From: Planctomycetales bacterium
GTDB taxonomy: Bacteria > Planctomycetota > Planctomycetia > Isosphaerales > Isosphaeraceae
DNA length: 59,917 nucleotides
Assembly: GCA_027449865.1 (NCBI GenBank)
Contig: DAIDKV010000179.1
Location: 1-59,917 of the forward strand
Reading direction: 5' to 3'
Under the pieces are notes generated by a model. That model was not told the DNA's origin and ran no database searches. It saw nothing but the letters and a program-made list of their open reading frames with translations. Position 1 is the first letter of the stretch; each line of letters opens with the position of its first letter. Both the position numbers and the translations under genes were made by a program. Positions 46,763-54,885 of this stretch are shown here, piece by piece.

Positions 46763-47812
46763 TCAGAACGGCAGGAGCCGACGGAACCCGTGCCCGAGGA
46801 TGACCGGATAGAGCATCAAATTCCTCGCCATCGCCGACGCCGCCGAGTAGCCCGGCACCACGGACGAATCCCCCTGGCGACGTCGAGCCAGGCACTCGGC
46901 CAGGGCCCTTAAATGAGAGGGCCCGAATGGTCCGTCGTGGATGCGTGCGATCCGACCGATCGGCAGTCCCGACTCGCCGTGAAGCGCCCCGAGCCAACCT
47001 CCCAGAATCGCACCGATCGAGTCGCTGTCGCCACCGACCGAGACCGCATCGACGAGGGTGGCGAACACGTCGCCGGCATGTCGCAAAAAGGCAAACGTCG
47101 CGAAGGCGAGCGTCTGGACGACGAACCCCGATGTCCCGCACTCATGGGCCGCCTCGAGAACCGACGCCCCGGATTCGGCCAGCGATCGGGCCCGGTCAAT
47201 CGCGCCGGCCAGTTCCGGATCGGTGACGACCCGCCGGCCCTCAGCCTGGCAGACGAAGGGGCTGACATCGCCCGGCCGCCGCGAGCAGGCCGCGGCGATC
47301 TCCGCGACATAAAGCGCGCCCTCGACCGCCCGGATATCGAGGTGGGTGACCTCGGCCAGGGCCCGGCCGAACGCGAGGCGATTCTCGGCGTCCTCGCGGA
47401 AAAACGTCCCGACCACCGCCGCTCGCATCGCGGCGCCGTTGCCGGCGGATCGAACCCCGGTCGGCCGGATCCCCAGGGCGATTCGGGCGCACGAAAGGAT
47501 CGTCGCCCGCCCAACGCCCCACGGAAGCCGCCCGAACCAGCCGAGCAGCGACCGCCGAAATACACCGACGCAAAGGTCGACATCATCAGGATGCCGGGCG
47601 ATCGCCTGCGCGATCAGGGCCGATTGCTCGGTGTCGTCGGAAACGAAGCCGATCGAGCCGAGCAGCCGAAAGCGATCGAGACGGCCAAACCGCCGGGCGA
47701 TCGCCGTTGCCGACATCCCCTCGGCGGGCAGTCCCAGAGCGTCGCCGAGCGCGATGCCGAGCAAGGTCCCGACAAGTCGGTCGTGCAGATCGATCGGATC
47801 GTCCGGCGTCAT
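46763..47812 (-). CDS. ADP-ribosylglycohydrolase family protein
   Basis: The 349-residue product shows ADP-ribosyl hydrolase (DraG/ARH) motifs: [16 protein letters not shown] at residues 17-32, [12 protein letters not shown] at 57-68 with metal-binding Asp pair, and near the C-terminus [14 protein letters not shown] with further Mg ligands. It should remove ADP-ribose from proteins or other targets using two Mg ions. No ADP-ribosyltransferase gene is nearby. The start at 47812 ([15 protein letters not shown]) precedes the first motif; the frame is open to 48988 over the convergent esterase and that part is not accepted. Confidence 0.88.
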
Positions 47813-47995
47813 CGTTTCACCGACGGGAAGCGAGGAGCAAAACCTCCATCCGACCATCCTATCGCACGCGACCGGATCGGGGCCAGGTCTGGGTCGTTGT
47901 CCGACGATCGGCGCCCGGTTATCCTCGGTCCGAACCCGACGGGCCAGGGTCGTGGCGGCCGTCGGAGATCCACCGCCCTCCCTCGGAGTCGCGCC

Positions 47996-48994
47996 ATGAG
48001 ACTGCTCGCCGCCTGCTCGATCGTCTTCTCCATGGCCCTCTCGGCCGCGATGGCCGCGCCGCCGGACAACCTCTACCACCTCGGGCCCGATTCGGAACCG
48101 CATCCCGAGGTGCCGAAGGGGAAGGTCGTTGGGCCGAGCGTCCTCAAAAGCGAGGTCTACCCGGGGACCACCCGGAATTACTGGGTCTACATCCCCGCAC
48201 AATATGACCCGACGAAACCAGCCTGCCTGATGGTCTTCCAGGACGGTCATGCCTTCCTCGGTCCGAAGGGGGACTACCGGATCCCAACCGTCTTCGACAA
48301 CCTGATCTACCGCCGCGAGATGCCGGTGACGATCGGCGTCTTCATCAACCCGGGTCACACCGAGAAGCAAAAAGAGGCGACGGATTCCAACTGGGGCGAT
48401 GGGACGACCAACCGTCGGGTCGAGTACAACGCGCTCGATGACCGCTATTCCCGCCTGATCGTGAATGAGTTGCTCCCCACGCTGAAGAAGGATTTCCGGA
48501 TCTCGGACGACCCCGAATGCCGGGCGATCGCCGGCGCCAGTTCGGGGGCGATCTGTGCGTTCACGGTGGCCTGGCACCGGCCCGACCAGTTCCGGAAGGT
48601 CATCAGCACGATCGGGAGCTTCACAAACATCATGGGCGGCCATGTTTACCCCGACCTGGTCCGCCAGGCCGAGCACAAGCCGATCCGGATCTTCCTTCAG
48701 GACGGTGCCAACGACAACCGAGGCACCCGCCGCGGCGGAGCCTACGACCCGAAGTGGGACTGGCACGCGCAGAACCGCAAGATGCTCGCCGCGCTCTCGG
48801 AAAAAGGTTACGATGTGAATTATGTCTGGGGAATTGGAACGCACTCGAACAAGCAGGGCGGCGCGATCATGCCCGAGATGCTCCGATGGCTCTGGCGCGA
48901 CCACCCCAGACCCGACGACCCGAAGGACGCCAGCAACCGCGGGCCGCTCGCCGCTCCCGAGCCGACCGCAACCGCCGCGCCTGCCCACCCGTAA
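47996..48994 (+). CDS. Exported esterase of the alpha/beta hydrolase (esterase D-like) type
   Basis: The 332-residue product has a signal peptide (residues 1-20, SAAMAAPP). The nucleophile elbow GASSG places Ser182 as catalytic residue, and [20 protein letters not shown] with a following [10 protein letters not shown] is the entry typical of Fes/esterase-D-like enzymes. The likely acid and base lie in [11 protein letters not shown] and [10 protein letters not shown]. It would hydrolyse esters outside the cytoplasm, perhaps of sugars or siderophores. Start at 47996 directly precedes the signal peptide. The small membrane protein gene follows after 22 bases. Confidence 0.87.
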
Positions 48995-49515: not shown

Positions 49516-49645
49516 TCCGCGGCGGTCGTGGATGGTCTTCTGGAGACGATCGACGCAGTCCCTTCGACAAAACGCGAGCGGTCGTCCGTCCCTGGTGTCT
49601 CCGAGCCCGCGTGCCTCCGTTTCCAGTGATAAAGGAGGACGAACC

Positions 49646-50533
49646 ATGAAGCGATCTCTGTTCGTGTTGAGCGTGGTCTCGGGTGCCGCTCTGGCGGTGG
49701 GATCGATGGTCGTGGTGGCCCAGCCGCCGGGCGGACCGGGCCGCGGCGGTCCGCCGAACCCGCTCTTGCAGGCGTTCGACACCGACCATGACGGCACCCT
49801 CTCGGCGGCCGAGATCGATGCCGCCTCGGCCAGGCTTCGCGAGCGCGACGCCAACCACGACGGCAAGCTCACCGCCGACGAGTTACCCCGCGGACCCGGT
49901 CGCGGGCCCGGCCGCGGCGGCCCAGGCGCCAGCAGGCCCGACGCCGCCAGCGACCTCAGCAAGCCACCTCTGCCGAAGGACGACGGCGAGAAGCGCATCC
50001 TCGCCGCCATCGAGAAGGCCCGCCAGGGCGAGCGGTACGCGAACGTCTCCACCGCCGACGGCCGCCTCCTCCGCCAGCTTGCCGAGTCGATCGGCGCCCG
50101 TCGGATCGTCGAACTCGGCACGTCCACCGGCGAGTCGGGCCTCTGGTTCTCGCTCGCGCTCCGCAAGACCGGCGGCAAGCTCTATACCCACGACATCGAC
50201 CCCGGCCGGATCGCCGTGGCCCGCGAAAACTTCAAGCAGGGCGGCGTCGACGACCTCATCATCATCACCGAGGGCGACGCCCACCAGACCGCCGTCCGCA
50301 ACCACGACCCGATCGATCTTCTCTTCATCGACGCCGAGAAGCCGGGATACGACGCCTATTTGAAGGAACTGCTCCCCTACGTACGACCCGGCGGCCTGAT
50401 CGTCGCCCACAACATGCGACAACCCGCCCCGAACCCCCGATACATCGAGGCCATCACCACCAACCCCAACCTCGACACCTCATTCGTCCTGATGGACGGC
50501 GCCGGCGTCGGGATCACCCTCAAAAAAAGGTAA
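49646..50533 (+). CDS. Exported fusion of two EF-hands with an O-methyltransferase domain
   Basis: The 295-residue product has a signal peptide (residues 1-26, ending VVVAQ). Two EF-hand loops, D45-x-D-x-D-G to E56 and D68-x-N-x-D-G to E79, are followed by a Gly/Pro linker. Residues 112-295 form an O-methyltransferase: GERYANVSTADGRLLRQLAE, SAM-binding VELGTSTGESG at 155-165, YTHDIDPGR and DLLFIDAEKPGYDAYLKELL. The COMT-type Asp-Asn metal pair is replaced by His-Asn (AHNM). AAAGGAGGA gives a very strong ribosome binding site. An exported SAM enzyme is unusual, since SAM is cytoplasmic. It probably heads an operon with the next two genes. Confidence 0.88.
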   Translation: MKRSLFVLSVVSGAALAVGSMVVVAQPPGGPGRGGPPNPLLQAFDTDHDGTLSAAEIDAASARLRERDANHDGKLTADELPRGPGRGPGRGGPGASRPDAASDLSKPPLPKDDGEKRILAAIEKARQGERYANVSTADGRLLRQLAESIGARRIVELGTSTGESGLWFSLALRKTGGKLYTHDIDPGRIAVARENFKQGGVDDLIIITEGDAHQTAVRNHDPIDLLFIDAEKPGYDAYLKELLPYVRPGGLIVAHNMRQPAPNPRYIEAITTNPNLDTSFVLMDGAGVGITLKKR

Positions 50534-50541
50534 TCCGAGCG

Positions 50542-51087
50542 ATGAAGCGAACGATCGTTCTGGTCAGTCTCACGATCGGCGCGGCCATCCTGGCCGGGAC
50601 CGTCCGGGCCCAGCGCCCGGGTGGTCCTGGCGGAATGCCGGGTCGCGGATTCCCGCCGCCTCCCGTGATGGCCGCACTCGACGCCAACGGCGACGGCGAG
50701 ATCTCGGCGAAGGAGATCGACAACGCCTCCGCGTCGCTCCGAACTCTCGATCGAAACCACGACGGCAAGCTCTCGCGCGAGGAACTGCTGGGCGCCCCCC
50801 GAGGATTCGGCAGACCCGGCGGCCCCGACCCCGGCGAGCTGGTCACCCGGATGATGGCGTTCGACAAAAACAGCGACAGCAAGCTCAGCCGCGATGAACT
50901 CCCCGAACGGATGCGCGGCCTGATGGAACGGGCCGACACCAACAAGGACGGCTTCGTCGACCGCGACGAGCTGACCCGGCTGGCGCGCGAGCAGGGCGGA
51001 CGCGGCCGTGGCCCCGGCGGCGAAGGCGAACGTCGCGGACCCGGACGAGAAGGCGGACGCGGACCTGGCCAGGATCACGACGATTGA
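50542..51087 (+). CDS. Exported protein with four EF-hand loops
   Basis: The 181-residue product has a signal peptide (residues 1-23). Four EF-hand loops are visible: D47-x-N-x-D-G to E58, D70-x-N-x-D-G to E81, D108-x-N-x-D-S to E119 and D132-x-N-x-D-G to E143. The third has Ser instead of Gly at loop position 6 and may be weak. The tail is Gly/Arg-rich. It is expected to bind calcium outside the cytoplasm. It starts 8 bases after the methyltransferase fusion, whose EF-hand part it resembles, and ends 37 bases before the ApbE gene. Confidence 0.9.
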   Translation: MKRTIVLVSLTIGAAILAGTVRAQRPGGPGGMPGRGFPPPPVMAALDANGDGEISAKEIDNASASLRTLDRNHDGKLSREELLGAPRGFGRPGGPDPGELVTRMMAFDKNSDSKLSRDELPERMRGLMERADTNKDGFVDRDELTRLAREQGGRGRGPGGEGERRGPGREGGRGPGQDHDD

Positions 51088-52690: not shown

Positions 52691-52897
52691 TTTCTCTTTG
52701 TAATTTCTACTTCGTTATTTGTTATTGGTAATCGGGAATCTGGATCTGGCAATCGGTACGCTCTCGCGGATGTCGGAACCGCCCGAACCATGGGGCGGCC
52801 ACCCTCGAGTGCCGATGTGGGCGCTCAGGATGGACGCTCCTCCAATTCCAGACCCCAGATTACCAATGACAAATGACAAAGAACTAATGACCAAAGA
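52691..52897. repeat. Inverted short-repeat element supplying the wrbA stop
   Basis: The left arm (52691-52742) reads TTTGTAATTTCTACTTCG and on with TTTGTTATTGGTAATCGGGA. The right arm (52846-52897) has the complementary style: CCAGATTACCAATGACAAAT, GACAAAGAAC, TAATGACCAAAG. The left arm begins right behind the ApbE TAA. The right arm overlaps the last codons and the TAG stop (52884-52886) of wrbA. Confidence 0.65.
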
Positions 52898-53498
52898 GCC
52901 GTCGAGTGATATCGGCGACGTGTCGGCCCTGATATCGGGCGATGTTGAGCTCGATCTCGCTCGGCAGGCGGCTGCCGTCGCCTCGGGTGATCGTCGTGGC
53001 GCCGTAGGGCGTTCCGCCGCTGATTTCGTCCATCTGCGTGAGGCCAGGCTCGGCGTACGGAACGCCCACGATGATCATCCCATGGTGCAGTAGCGTCGTG
53101 TGAAAGCTCGTGATGGTCGTCTCCTGGCCGCCGTGCTGGCTCGCCGTGCTCGCGAAGACGCTCCCCACCTTCCCCACGAGCCCGCCGGCCATCCAGAGCC
53201 GACCCGTCTGATCCAGGAAGTTCCGCATCTGCGCGCTCATGTTGCCAAACCGCGTCGGCGTCCCGAAGAGGATCGCATCGGCCTCCGCCAGCCGATCCGG
53301 CTCGATCACCGGAACGTGCGCGAACGCCGACCGCGCGGCCTTCCCCCCCGTCCGCTCCAGCGCCTCGTCGGGAACCAGTTCGGGCACCTGGTACAGCTCC
53401 ACCTCGGCCCCCTGCACCTGCCGCGCTCCCTCGGCGATCGCCTCGGCCATCCGGTAGATATGCCCGTACATGCTGTAAAAAACCACCTGAATCTTCAT
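52884..53498 (-). CDS. wrbA: NAD(P)H:quinone oxidoreductase, flavodoxin-like
   Basis: The 204-residue product reduces quinones by two electrons with FMN. The FMN phosphate loop is [20 protein letters not shown], and further motifs are [35 protein letters not shown] and [14 protein letters not shown], all diagnostic of WrbA. AAAGGAG lies 6 bases before the ATG. It is the third gene after MarR and pirin on the minus strand, so it probably belongs to a quinone/electrophile stress unit. Its last residue His and stop codon lie in a repeat arm. Confidence 0.95.
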
Positions 53499-53555
53499 CG
53501 CAACTCCTTTGAGTAAGAATACCCTGTCCTGTCCTGTCTGGCCCCGCCGCGCCGA

Positions 53556-54254
53556 TCACGGCAGGTCGAAGACCAGAACCTCCGCCGGCCCCTCAGCACG
53601 GATCGCCAGCGTTGGCTCCTCGGCGATCGCCGCGCCGTCGCCGGCCGACATCCGAAGTTCGCCCAACGCCACCTCGCCACGCAACACCTGAACCCACGCG
53701 TAACGTCCCGGCTCCAGCTCATGCGGGATCGCCTCACCGCCCTCCATCAAGGCCAGATACAGCCGTGCATCCTGCCGGATCGATAGCGAGCCGTCCCGCC
53801 CATCCGGTGAGGCGACCAGCCGCAACCGCCCCCGACGCTCCTCCTCCGAAAACGCCTTCTGCTCGTACGACGGCTCCAACCCCGCCCGCTCCGGATACAT
53901 CCAGATCTGGTACAGATGCACCGGCTCCGTCGACGACGGATTGAACTCGCTGTGCACAATCCCCGTTCCCGCCGTCATCCGCTGCAATTCCCCAGGCCGA
54001 ATCGTGCTCCCCGTCCCCAGACTGTCCCGATGCTCCAGCTCGCCCGAGAGCACATACGTCACAATCTCCATGTTCTCATGCGGATGCGCCCCAAACCCAC
54101 GCCCCGCCCCAATCCAGTCCTCGTTCATCACCCGAAGCGATCGGAACCCCATCTGTCCCCGATCGTGATACCCCGCGAACGAAAACGTGTGATACGTGTT
54201 CAACCACCCGTGATCGAAATGACCACGATCCTCTCCCCGACGAACCCGGACCAT
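53556..54254 (-). CDS. Pirin-family protein (YhhW-like)
   Basis: The 232-residue product is a bicupin of the pirin family. The metal-binding set is in FGAHPHENMEIVTYVLSGEL (two His and a Glu) plus a later His in GTGIVHSEFN. HFDHGWLNTYHTFSFAGYHD is the usual start. E. coli YhhW has quercetin dioxygenase activity; the physiological substrate is uncertain. GAGGAGGT stands 4-5 bases before the ATG. It lies between marR and wrbA, and a sequence shared with the marR promoter precedes it. Confidence 0.95.
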   Translation of the reverse strand: MVRVRRGEDRGHFDHGWLNTYHTFSFAGYHDRGQMGFRSLRVMNEDWIGAGRGFGAHPHENMEIVTYVLSGELEHRDSLGTGSTIRPGELQRMTAGTGIVHSEFNPSSTEPVHLYQIWMYPERAGLEPSYEQKAFSEEERRGRLRLVASPDGRDGSLSIRQDARLYLALMEGGEAIPHELEPGRYAWVQVLRGEVALGELRMSAGDGAAIAEEPTLAIRAEGPAEVLVFDLP

Positions 54255-54279
54255 CGCGACCTCCTCATCCCTTCAGGGA

Positions 54280-54307
54280 TCAATCATTGAAACGTCAACC
54301 AATCGGG
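54280..54307 (-). promoter_or_regulatory. Probable MarR operator before the pirin gene
   Basis: CGTCAACCAATCGGG (54293-54307) differs at one base from CGTCAATCAATCGGG in the marR promoter (54865-54879). It adjoins the inverted half-sites TTGA-N4-TCAA (54287-54298). The location 30-50 bases before the pirin ATG fits an operator. Confidence 0.6.
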
Positions 54308-54327
54308 CAAAAAAAGCGGCGGGCGGC

Positions 54328-54810
54328 TCATCCTCCGCAATCGTCGAGCGACTGCCGGGCCTTTTCCAGCAGACGGGTGAGCTCGCGAAGTTCGTCCGGA
54401 GTCAAATGGCCGAGGAGCCTCCTGTGGAGCGCGGCCTCGGGCGCATCGATCCGGGCGAGCAGTTGGAGGCCAGGCTCCGTGATCGTCACGAAGACGACGC
54501 GGCGATCCTCGGTCGAGCGCTCCCGATCGAGCAGGCCCATCGCTTCCAGGCGGTCGATCAGCCCGGTGATCCCGGGAACGGCCGTCAGCATCCGGTCGGC
54601 CACCTCCAGGATCGGCAGCGGCTTCCCCTCACCACGGAGAATCCGCAATACGTTGTACTGCGAGGGCGTCAGCCCGTGCTCCCGAAACAGCCGCGTGAAG
54701 CAGATGCCAAACCGGTCGGCCGTTCGCGTGATGTTCAGCGCCGCCTCCTGCTCCAGCGAGTCAAACGGCCGGCGCTTCTTCAGTTCCCGCTGCAACCGGC
54801 CGCCTGCCAT
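54328..54810 (-). CDS. MarR-family transcriptional regulator
   Basis: The 160-residue product has the MarR winged helix: LNITRTADRFGICFTRLFRE, HGLTPSQYNVLRILRGEGKP, LEVADRMLTAVPGITGLIDR and LEAMGLLDRERSTEDRRVVF with the wing D-R-R. It should repress itself, pirin and possibly wrbA, and respond to a phenolic or oxidative ligand. Start at 54810 has GGAGG 9 bases upstream; ATG 54819 would leave no spacing, and ATG 54870 would lie inside the promoter. There is no redox Cys at the N-terminus as in OhrR (one Cys is in GICFTRL). Confidence 0.9.
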   Translation of the reverse strand: MAGGRLQRELKKRRPFDSLEQEAALNITRTADRFGICFTRLFREHGLTPSQYNVLRILRGEGKPLPILEVADRMLTAVPGITGLIDRLEAMGLLDRERSTEDRRVVFVTITEPGLQLLARIDAPEAALHRRLLGHLTPDELRELTRLLEKARQSLDDCGG

Positions 54811-54856
54811 CACGCCCATCCTCCCCGAGAATCCGTCTCCGACGCCCACACCAATT

Positions 54857-54885
54857 AGTTTACGCGTCAATCAATCGGGTGTCAA
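54857..54885 (-). promoter_or_regulatory. marR promoter with operator in the spacer
   Basis: On the minus strand TTGACA (54885-54880), a 17-base spacer and TAAACT (54862-54857) form a near-ideal sigma-70 promoter. The spacer and -10 carry the imperfect palindrome TTGATTGACGCGTAAACTAA (14 of 20 positions symmetric), the presumed MarR site. The TGA stop of kup (54884-54882) lies inside the -35 hexamer. Confidence 0.75.

Follow-up and report, generated by a model that had tools for sequence, protein, structure and literature searches.

The analyzed window comprises 59,917 nucleotides of contig DAIDKV010000179.1, originating from a member of the Isosphaeraceae within the phylum Planctomycetota. 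Within this window, an open reading frame of 295 amino acids with an ATG start codon was observed at positions 49646-50533 on the plus strand. From the N- to the C-terminus, the deduced protein consists of a signal peptide, a pair of EF-hand loops, a Gly/Pro-rich linker and a complete O-methyltransferase of the COMT fold. The following features were assigned to the gene and its downstream neighbours:

49633-49638, plus strand: Shine-Dalgarno sequence AGGAGG, located 7 nt ahead of the ATG (sequence reading and start-codon scan)
49646-49720, plus strand: signal peptide, residues 1-25, with a predicted cut between VVA and QPP (sequence and homologues)
49778-49813, plus strand: EF-hand loop 1, DTDHDGTLSAAE, residues 45-56 (PF13202, PF00036)
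49847-49882, plus strand: EF-hand loop 2, DANHDGKLTADE, residues 68-79, starting 23 residues after loop 1
49955-50530, plus strand: COMT-fold O-methyltransferase domain, residues ~104-295
50330-50332, plus strand: D229, position of the first COMT metal Asp, invariant in 49/49 members; K232, the catalytic Lys position, lies further along the motif
50408-50413, plus strand: H255-N256, replacing the COMT-type Asp-Asn metal pair
50542-51087, plus strand: next gene, encoding the exported EF-hand protein P0002
51119-52690, plus strand: gene for a predicted periplasmic protein with ApbE (FAD:protein FMN transferase) and DUF2271 domains

The N-terminal ~93 residues of P0002 are 57% identical to those of the methyltransferase protein, and the N-terminal part of the latter is paralogous to the next gene. 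Further downstream, genes for WrbA, a quercetinase-type pirin and a MarR regulator were found in a row on the minus strand (52884-54870), an arrangement resembling a quinone or phenol response cluster. WrbA scored above its NCBIfam cut-off, the pirin carries the quercetinase C-terminal domain, and the MarR protein is closest to HpaR of homoprotocatechuate degradation, at a score below the cut-off. On the other side of the gene, the C-terminal part of a minus-strand open reading frame (46763-48988) resembles an ADP-ribosylglycohydrolase, as recognized by eye only.

The combination of a signal peptide, two EF-hands and a complete O-methyltransferase in one chain, which an earlier note on this DNA had described from the sequence alone, was confirmed by sequence inspection, Pfam and homologues. 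That note had also proposed a search for the same domain order in other genomes; the architecture was indeed recovered in a sister MAG (95% identity) as well as in further families of Planctomycetota. A scan of genome contigs returned matches in planctomycetes only, plus one EF-only match. Conservation of the architecture in these relatives is far beyond chance.

In total, 49 members of the family were collected, all from Planctomycetota. Within the Isosphaeraceae, the family is present in 19 of 45 genomes. Scores obtained for a class-wide sample of 397 genomes were bimodal: 39 genes matched at E <= 2.5e-75 and the next only at 2.8e-35, from which point onward other types of O-methyltransferase begin. 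Ten further members originated from a sample of 392 genomes across the phylum. By these search scores, the members form a discrete, phylum-wide family. Matches from a plasmid homologue search all showed less than 60% identity, and the one examined (Rhizobium, locus L155) is of the DN type and has no export signal. Viral contigs yielded three weak matches.

Membership of the catalytic domain in Methyltransf_3 (PF01596; 2.8e-18) is supported by 66.4 bits against a cut-off of 22, and a match to Methyltransf_24 was obtained at 1.3e-16; the fusion homologues at loci L143 and L145 reached 91 and 98 bits for PF01596. The AlphaFold2 model, computed from an input alignment of 7 sequences, is confident for the methyltransferase domain only, with pLDDT values of about 70-91 for residues 111-260; the N-terminal 110 residues mostly remained below 50, and no confident EF fold was obtained. 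Superposition on family-3 O-methyltransferases and COMTs gave Z scores of 16.7-19.4 over 157-183 residues, and phmmer against the PDB found the same proteins as the fold search, the best being the Niastella COMT 7cvu (2.2e-19). Model, fold match and alignment agree: the domain has a Rossmann-like class I methyltransferase fold in which no SAM motif is missing, the motifs being ELGTSTGES (156-164) for SAM binding, the acidic residue D183, GDAH (210-213) and FIDAEK (227-232).

The most distant of the 49 aligned members share 34-55% identity with the window protein over the domain. Throughout the alignment, residues E156, G158, G162, S164, A212, D229, K232, H255 and N256 are invariant, D211 is kept in 98%, and position 183 holds an acidic residue (Asp or Glu) in every case. 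The earlier note had named a loss of SAM-binding residues in close homologues as an outcome that would speak against it; such a loss was looked for and is absent from these 49 members. A broken or decoy SAM site is ruled out by the same invariant residues.

The metal site departs from that of COMT. From alignments and what is known of COMT, we take D229, K232 and N256 to be the first metal Asp, the catalytic Lys and the metal Asn, and H255 to occupy the position of the second metal Asp. The metal triad is therefore D/H/N rather than D/D/N. His was found in 49/49 family members, whereas Asp was found in 13/13 aligned paralogues that have no export signal, and the family was accordingly not filed under the canonical COMT-type Asp/Asp/Asn site, in which the second ligand is an Asp beside the Asn. 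The earlier note had read this pair correctly as His-Asn and had seen in it a hint of changed chemistry, a suggestion to which the difference between the family and its non-exported paralogues lends further weight. Another residue specific to the family is H213 (94%) in the GDAH motif, which, by our own alignment, presumably lies near the COMT adenine contact.

The N-terminus of the window protein, MKRSLFVLSVVSGAALAVGSMVVVA followed by QPP, was recognized from the sequence and its homologues as a Sec-type signal peptide of the classical kind, in which a V-x-A site lies ahead of Q. Across the family, signal peptides were assessed by eye and by a hydrophobicity and motif scan. A hydrophobic export signal or anchor was present at the N-terminus of 48/48 members with an intact N-terminus, the 49th (L151) being truncated by a contig end and left outside this count; in the window sequence, a positive n-region, a hydrophobic core and a signal peptidase I site were recognized. 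The export signal reported in the earlier note is thus upheld, and the family proteins are probably truly exported. Lipobox-like LSAC motifs were noticed in L114 (at the N-terminus, the same gene as in L040) and L149, which raises the possibility that part of the family consists of lipoproteins. L153 and L154, closely related to the family without belonging to it, are predicted to be exported yet retain the Asp, which indicates that export and the His are not strictly tied. In L153 (2204-4435, minus strand), the methyltransferase domain forms the C-terminal part of a 743-aa secreted matrixin-like protein, either a true fusion or a join made in assembly, in which FDN replaces AHN.

Both loops of the window protein are canonical DxDxDG...E EF-hand loops and were assigned to EF-hand_5 (1e-07; 31.5 bits, cut-off 25.9) and EF-hand_1 (9e-06; 25.4 bits, cut-off 25.4); they likely bind calcium. 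Such a pair occurs in 15 of the 49 members, distributed over five family groups (f1, f4, f24, f55 and f87), and consists of exactly two loops between signal and catalytic domain, always at the short spacing of 23 residues. The idea that the window protein arose by a recent, one-time fusion with its neighbour P0002 was rejected, since the same loops with the exact spacing recur in all five groups. On the catalytic-domain tree, the trait requires nine changes of state, and close sisters differ: L113 has the pair and L114 lacks it, as is the case for L129 and L127, respectively. Two genomes harbour one member with and one without the pair (L112 and L119 in G027; L113 and L123 in G001). Members devoid of the pair occur, among others, in the cultivable Isosphaeraceae Paludisphaera soli (L041) and Aquisphaera insulae (L040). 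An old module lost repeatedly and a module gained repeatedly both fit this pattern. The idea put forward in the earlier note that calcium might control the enzyme is not supported as a general mechanism, because the pair is restricted to these 15 members and is absent from near neighbours; calcium as a family-wide switch was rejected on the same count and on the nine state changes. Calcium control is at most an accessory feature, and calcium binding is not needed for the conserved core.

To characterize the genomic context, neighbouring genes were clustered across 50 loci. One recurrent partner emerged, a LAT-type amino-acid permease of the APC superfamily. In 8 of 49 loci (L108, L113, L131, L143, L144, L145, L148 and L150), it directly follows the methyltransferase gene on the same strand, the gap between the two being -15 to +101 bp. 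In L130 it directly precedes that gene, and in L132 it is located upstream at a distance of about 3 kb. The rough chance expectation for this adjacency is 0.018 in 49 loci, a value that presumes random gene order; L143 and L144 are from congeneric genomes. No such exchanger was found within about 1.5 kb of flank beside the O-methyltransferases outside the family that served as control. In genomes G437 and G279, the linked exchanger is the single PF13520 gene, and two PF13520 genes each are present in G334, G350 and G101. The window locus has no exchanger, and ten PF13520 genes are located elsewhere in its genome.

The exchangers match PF13520 well above its cut-off. Their best NCBIfam match is TIGR00911 (L-type amino acid transporter), for which six exchangers scored about 178-222 bits against a cut-off of 702; accordingly, they are classified here only as APC superfamily, LAT-like. 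When placed in one tree together with 40 further permeases of the same and related genomes, the linked exchangers fall into at least three separate clades, and the pairing therefore probably arose more than once. This distribution speaks for a functional pairing more than for simple inheritance. Ordinary amino acids are the usual substrates of LAT-type exchangers, and yeast Sam3 is a precedent for a SAM permease of the APC type. Since SAM and SAH bear a free alpha-amino-acid group, a LAT-type exchanger would be a chemically reasonable SAM/SAH carrier. SAM/SAH exchange is known for plant SAMT1 (PMC4158793) and for SLC25A26 (PMC9239748).

A weaker theme among the neighbours is that of aromatic compounds. 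Predicted intradiol dioxygenases (PF00775, Dioxygenase_C) occur near the orthologues L108, L110 and L112, at distances of 32 bp, 197 bp and 1.5 kb, respectively. A Tat-like N-terminus (SRRGFLGA) was noticed in the dioxygenase of L110 (349-1053, minus strand) and also in those of L108 and L112. The ApbE gene occurs beside the orthologue L110 as well; together with the EF-hand gene it was considered as a universal partner and discarded, both being seen only in the window, the sister MAG (L037) and L110. Together with the WrbA, pirin and MarR genes of the window, these neighbours suggest phenolic or quinone substrates, as a hint and no more; they are limited to a few Isosphaeraceae loci and may reflect shared synteny or chance.

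Based on these results, the reading we favour, at somewhat less than even confidence, is that of an extracytoplasmic, SAM-dependent phenol or catechol O-methyltransferase with a D/H/N metal site, to which SAM is delivered across the membrane. The protein would be exported by the Sec system and then either be set free or stay anchored to the cytoplasmic membrane at its outer face, where the catalytic domain would fold and bind SAM in its fully conserved pocket. The conserved Lys and a divalent metal, coordinated by Asp229, His255 and Asn256 rather than by Asp/Asp/Asn, would then serve to methylate a hydroxyl group, with a phenol- or catechol-type compound as the most likely substrate; the His may fit the site to a metal other than Mg2+. 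SAM would have to cross the membrane to reach the outer side, and in several lineages the downstream LAT-type exchanger may carry SAM out and SAH back. The EF pair would represent an optional calcium-binding module for stability, localization or surface binding, apart from the core chemistry. We infer real export, catalytic activity, the identity of the metal, the substrate and the SAM route from the data above; what the comparison of homologues itself demonstrates is limited to selection for joint retention of the export signal and the SAM site.

To our knowledge, SAM has not been reported from the bacterial periplasm, and this methyl donor is as a rule confined to the cell interior. A further point against the favoured reading is that the exchanger neighbours the gene in only 8 of 49 loci, the window not among them. 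The expected lack of SAM outside the cytoplasm gives weight to the strongest competing explanation, a co-opted fold: a periplasmic scavenging or sensing protein would bind SAH, methylthioadenosine, another adenine nucleoside or an aromatic ligand, no methylation would take place, and the exchanger would import an amino-acid-like ligand. The replacement of the metal Asp in every member, H213 near the presumed adenine contact and the affiliation of the linked transporter to amino-acid exchangers are in line with such a role. However, a pure binder would be expected to lose some of the residues Lys232, D229 and N256 among 49 diverse members, and all three are invariant; we consider the co-opted fold unlikely, though worth keeping in view.

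An enzyme at the inner face of the membrane or in the cytoplasm has a poorer standing. Its N-terminus would be a weak or uncleaved signal, or its catalytic domain would be inserted inside, and ordinary cytoplasmic SAM would be used, as by many anchored methyltransferases. L140 and L141 are indeed anchor-like and have no clear cleavage site, and planctomycete membranes are complex. On the other hand, Lys/Arg ahead of the hydrophobic core in many members predicts an N-in/C-out orientation, and an A-x-A-like site was detected in 43 of 50 scanned rows (48 complete members and two relatives), many ending in AQ as canonical signal peptides do; moreover, the EF-hand modules and the exported EF-hand neighbour fit a calcium-rich outside. 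Equally improbable is an exchanger unrelated to SAM, by which a LAT-type permease would import the product of a periplasmic methylation of an amino acid or amino-acid-containing compound (e.g., a DOPA-like catechol): the best NCBIfam match is an L-type amino acid transporter and LAT-type carriers can take aromatic amino acids, but the source of SAM would be left unexplained and no DOPA-related gene was seen nearby.

The extracytoplasmic methyltransferase may also be placed in a wider frame, in which Planctomycetota would methylate outside the cytoplasm by an exported COMT-like His-site enzyme, to which an APC-superfamily exchanger dedicated to SAM and SAH, recruited to the operon several times, would supply the methyl donor. 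As a complete scenario, this proposal is rather doubtful.

With class I methyltransferases of family 3 and the COMT type (PF01596; Niastella COMT 7cvu, S. avermitilis COMT 8c9s, TomG 5n5d, rat and human COMT), the family shares the fold, the SAM motifs, the FIDA-x-K motif, which holds both the first metal Asp and the catalytic Lys, and the metal Asn. It differs from them in being predicted as exported, in the invariant His for the metal Asp, in H213 and in the optional EF pair in front. Mammalian MB-COMT resembles the family in combining a COMT domain with a membrane-bound form, but is eukaryotic, has no EF-hands and retains the Asp-Asn pair. Membrane-associated catalysis has been described for this membrane-bound form (PMC7031182). 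Lanmodulin-like EF-hand proteins and P0002 are likewise exported with loops about 23 residues apart; the window protein differs by its methyltransferase fusion and by having only two loops, and its match to the Lanmodulin profile NF053806 is weak (23 bits against a cut-off of 135). In the open-licence papers searched, neither a direct precedent for an exported bacterial SAM enzyme nor a description of this family or of an EF-hand/O-methyltransferase fusion was found. The family represents a D/H/N variant, predicted to be exported, of a known fold family, lying within PF01596 and lacking the Asp-Asn metal pair.

It is a general assumption that SAM-using methyltransferases depend on the cytoplasm. 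The joint retention of export signal and complete SAM site over deep divergence in 49 genes means that this assumption deserves a direct test. Furthermore, the invariant change from Asp to His represents a possible new metal specificity in a fold that is a drug target (COMT). Finally, with the recurrent LAT-type exchanger there is a specific candidate SAM/SAH transporter in bacteria, so that the question could be addressed by transport assays.
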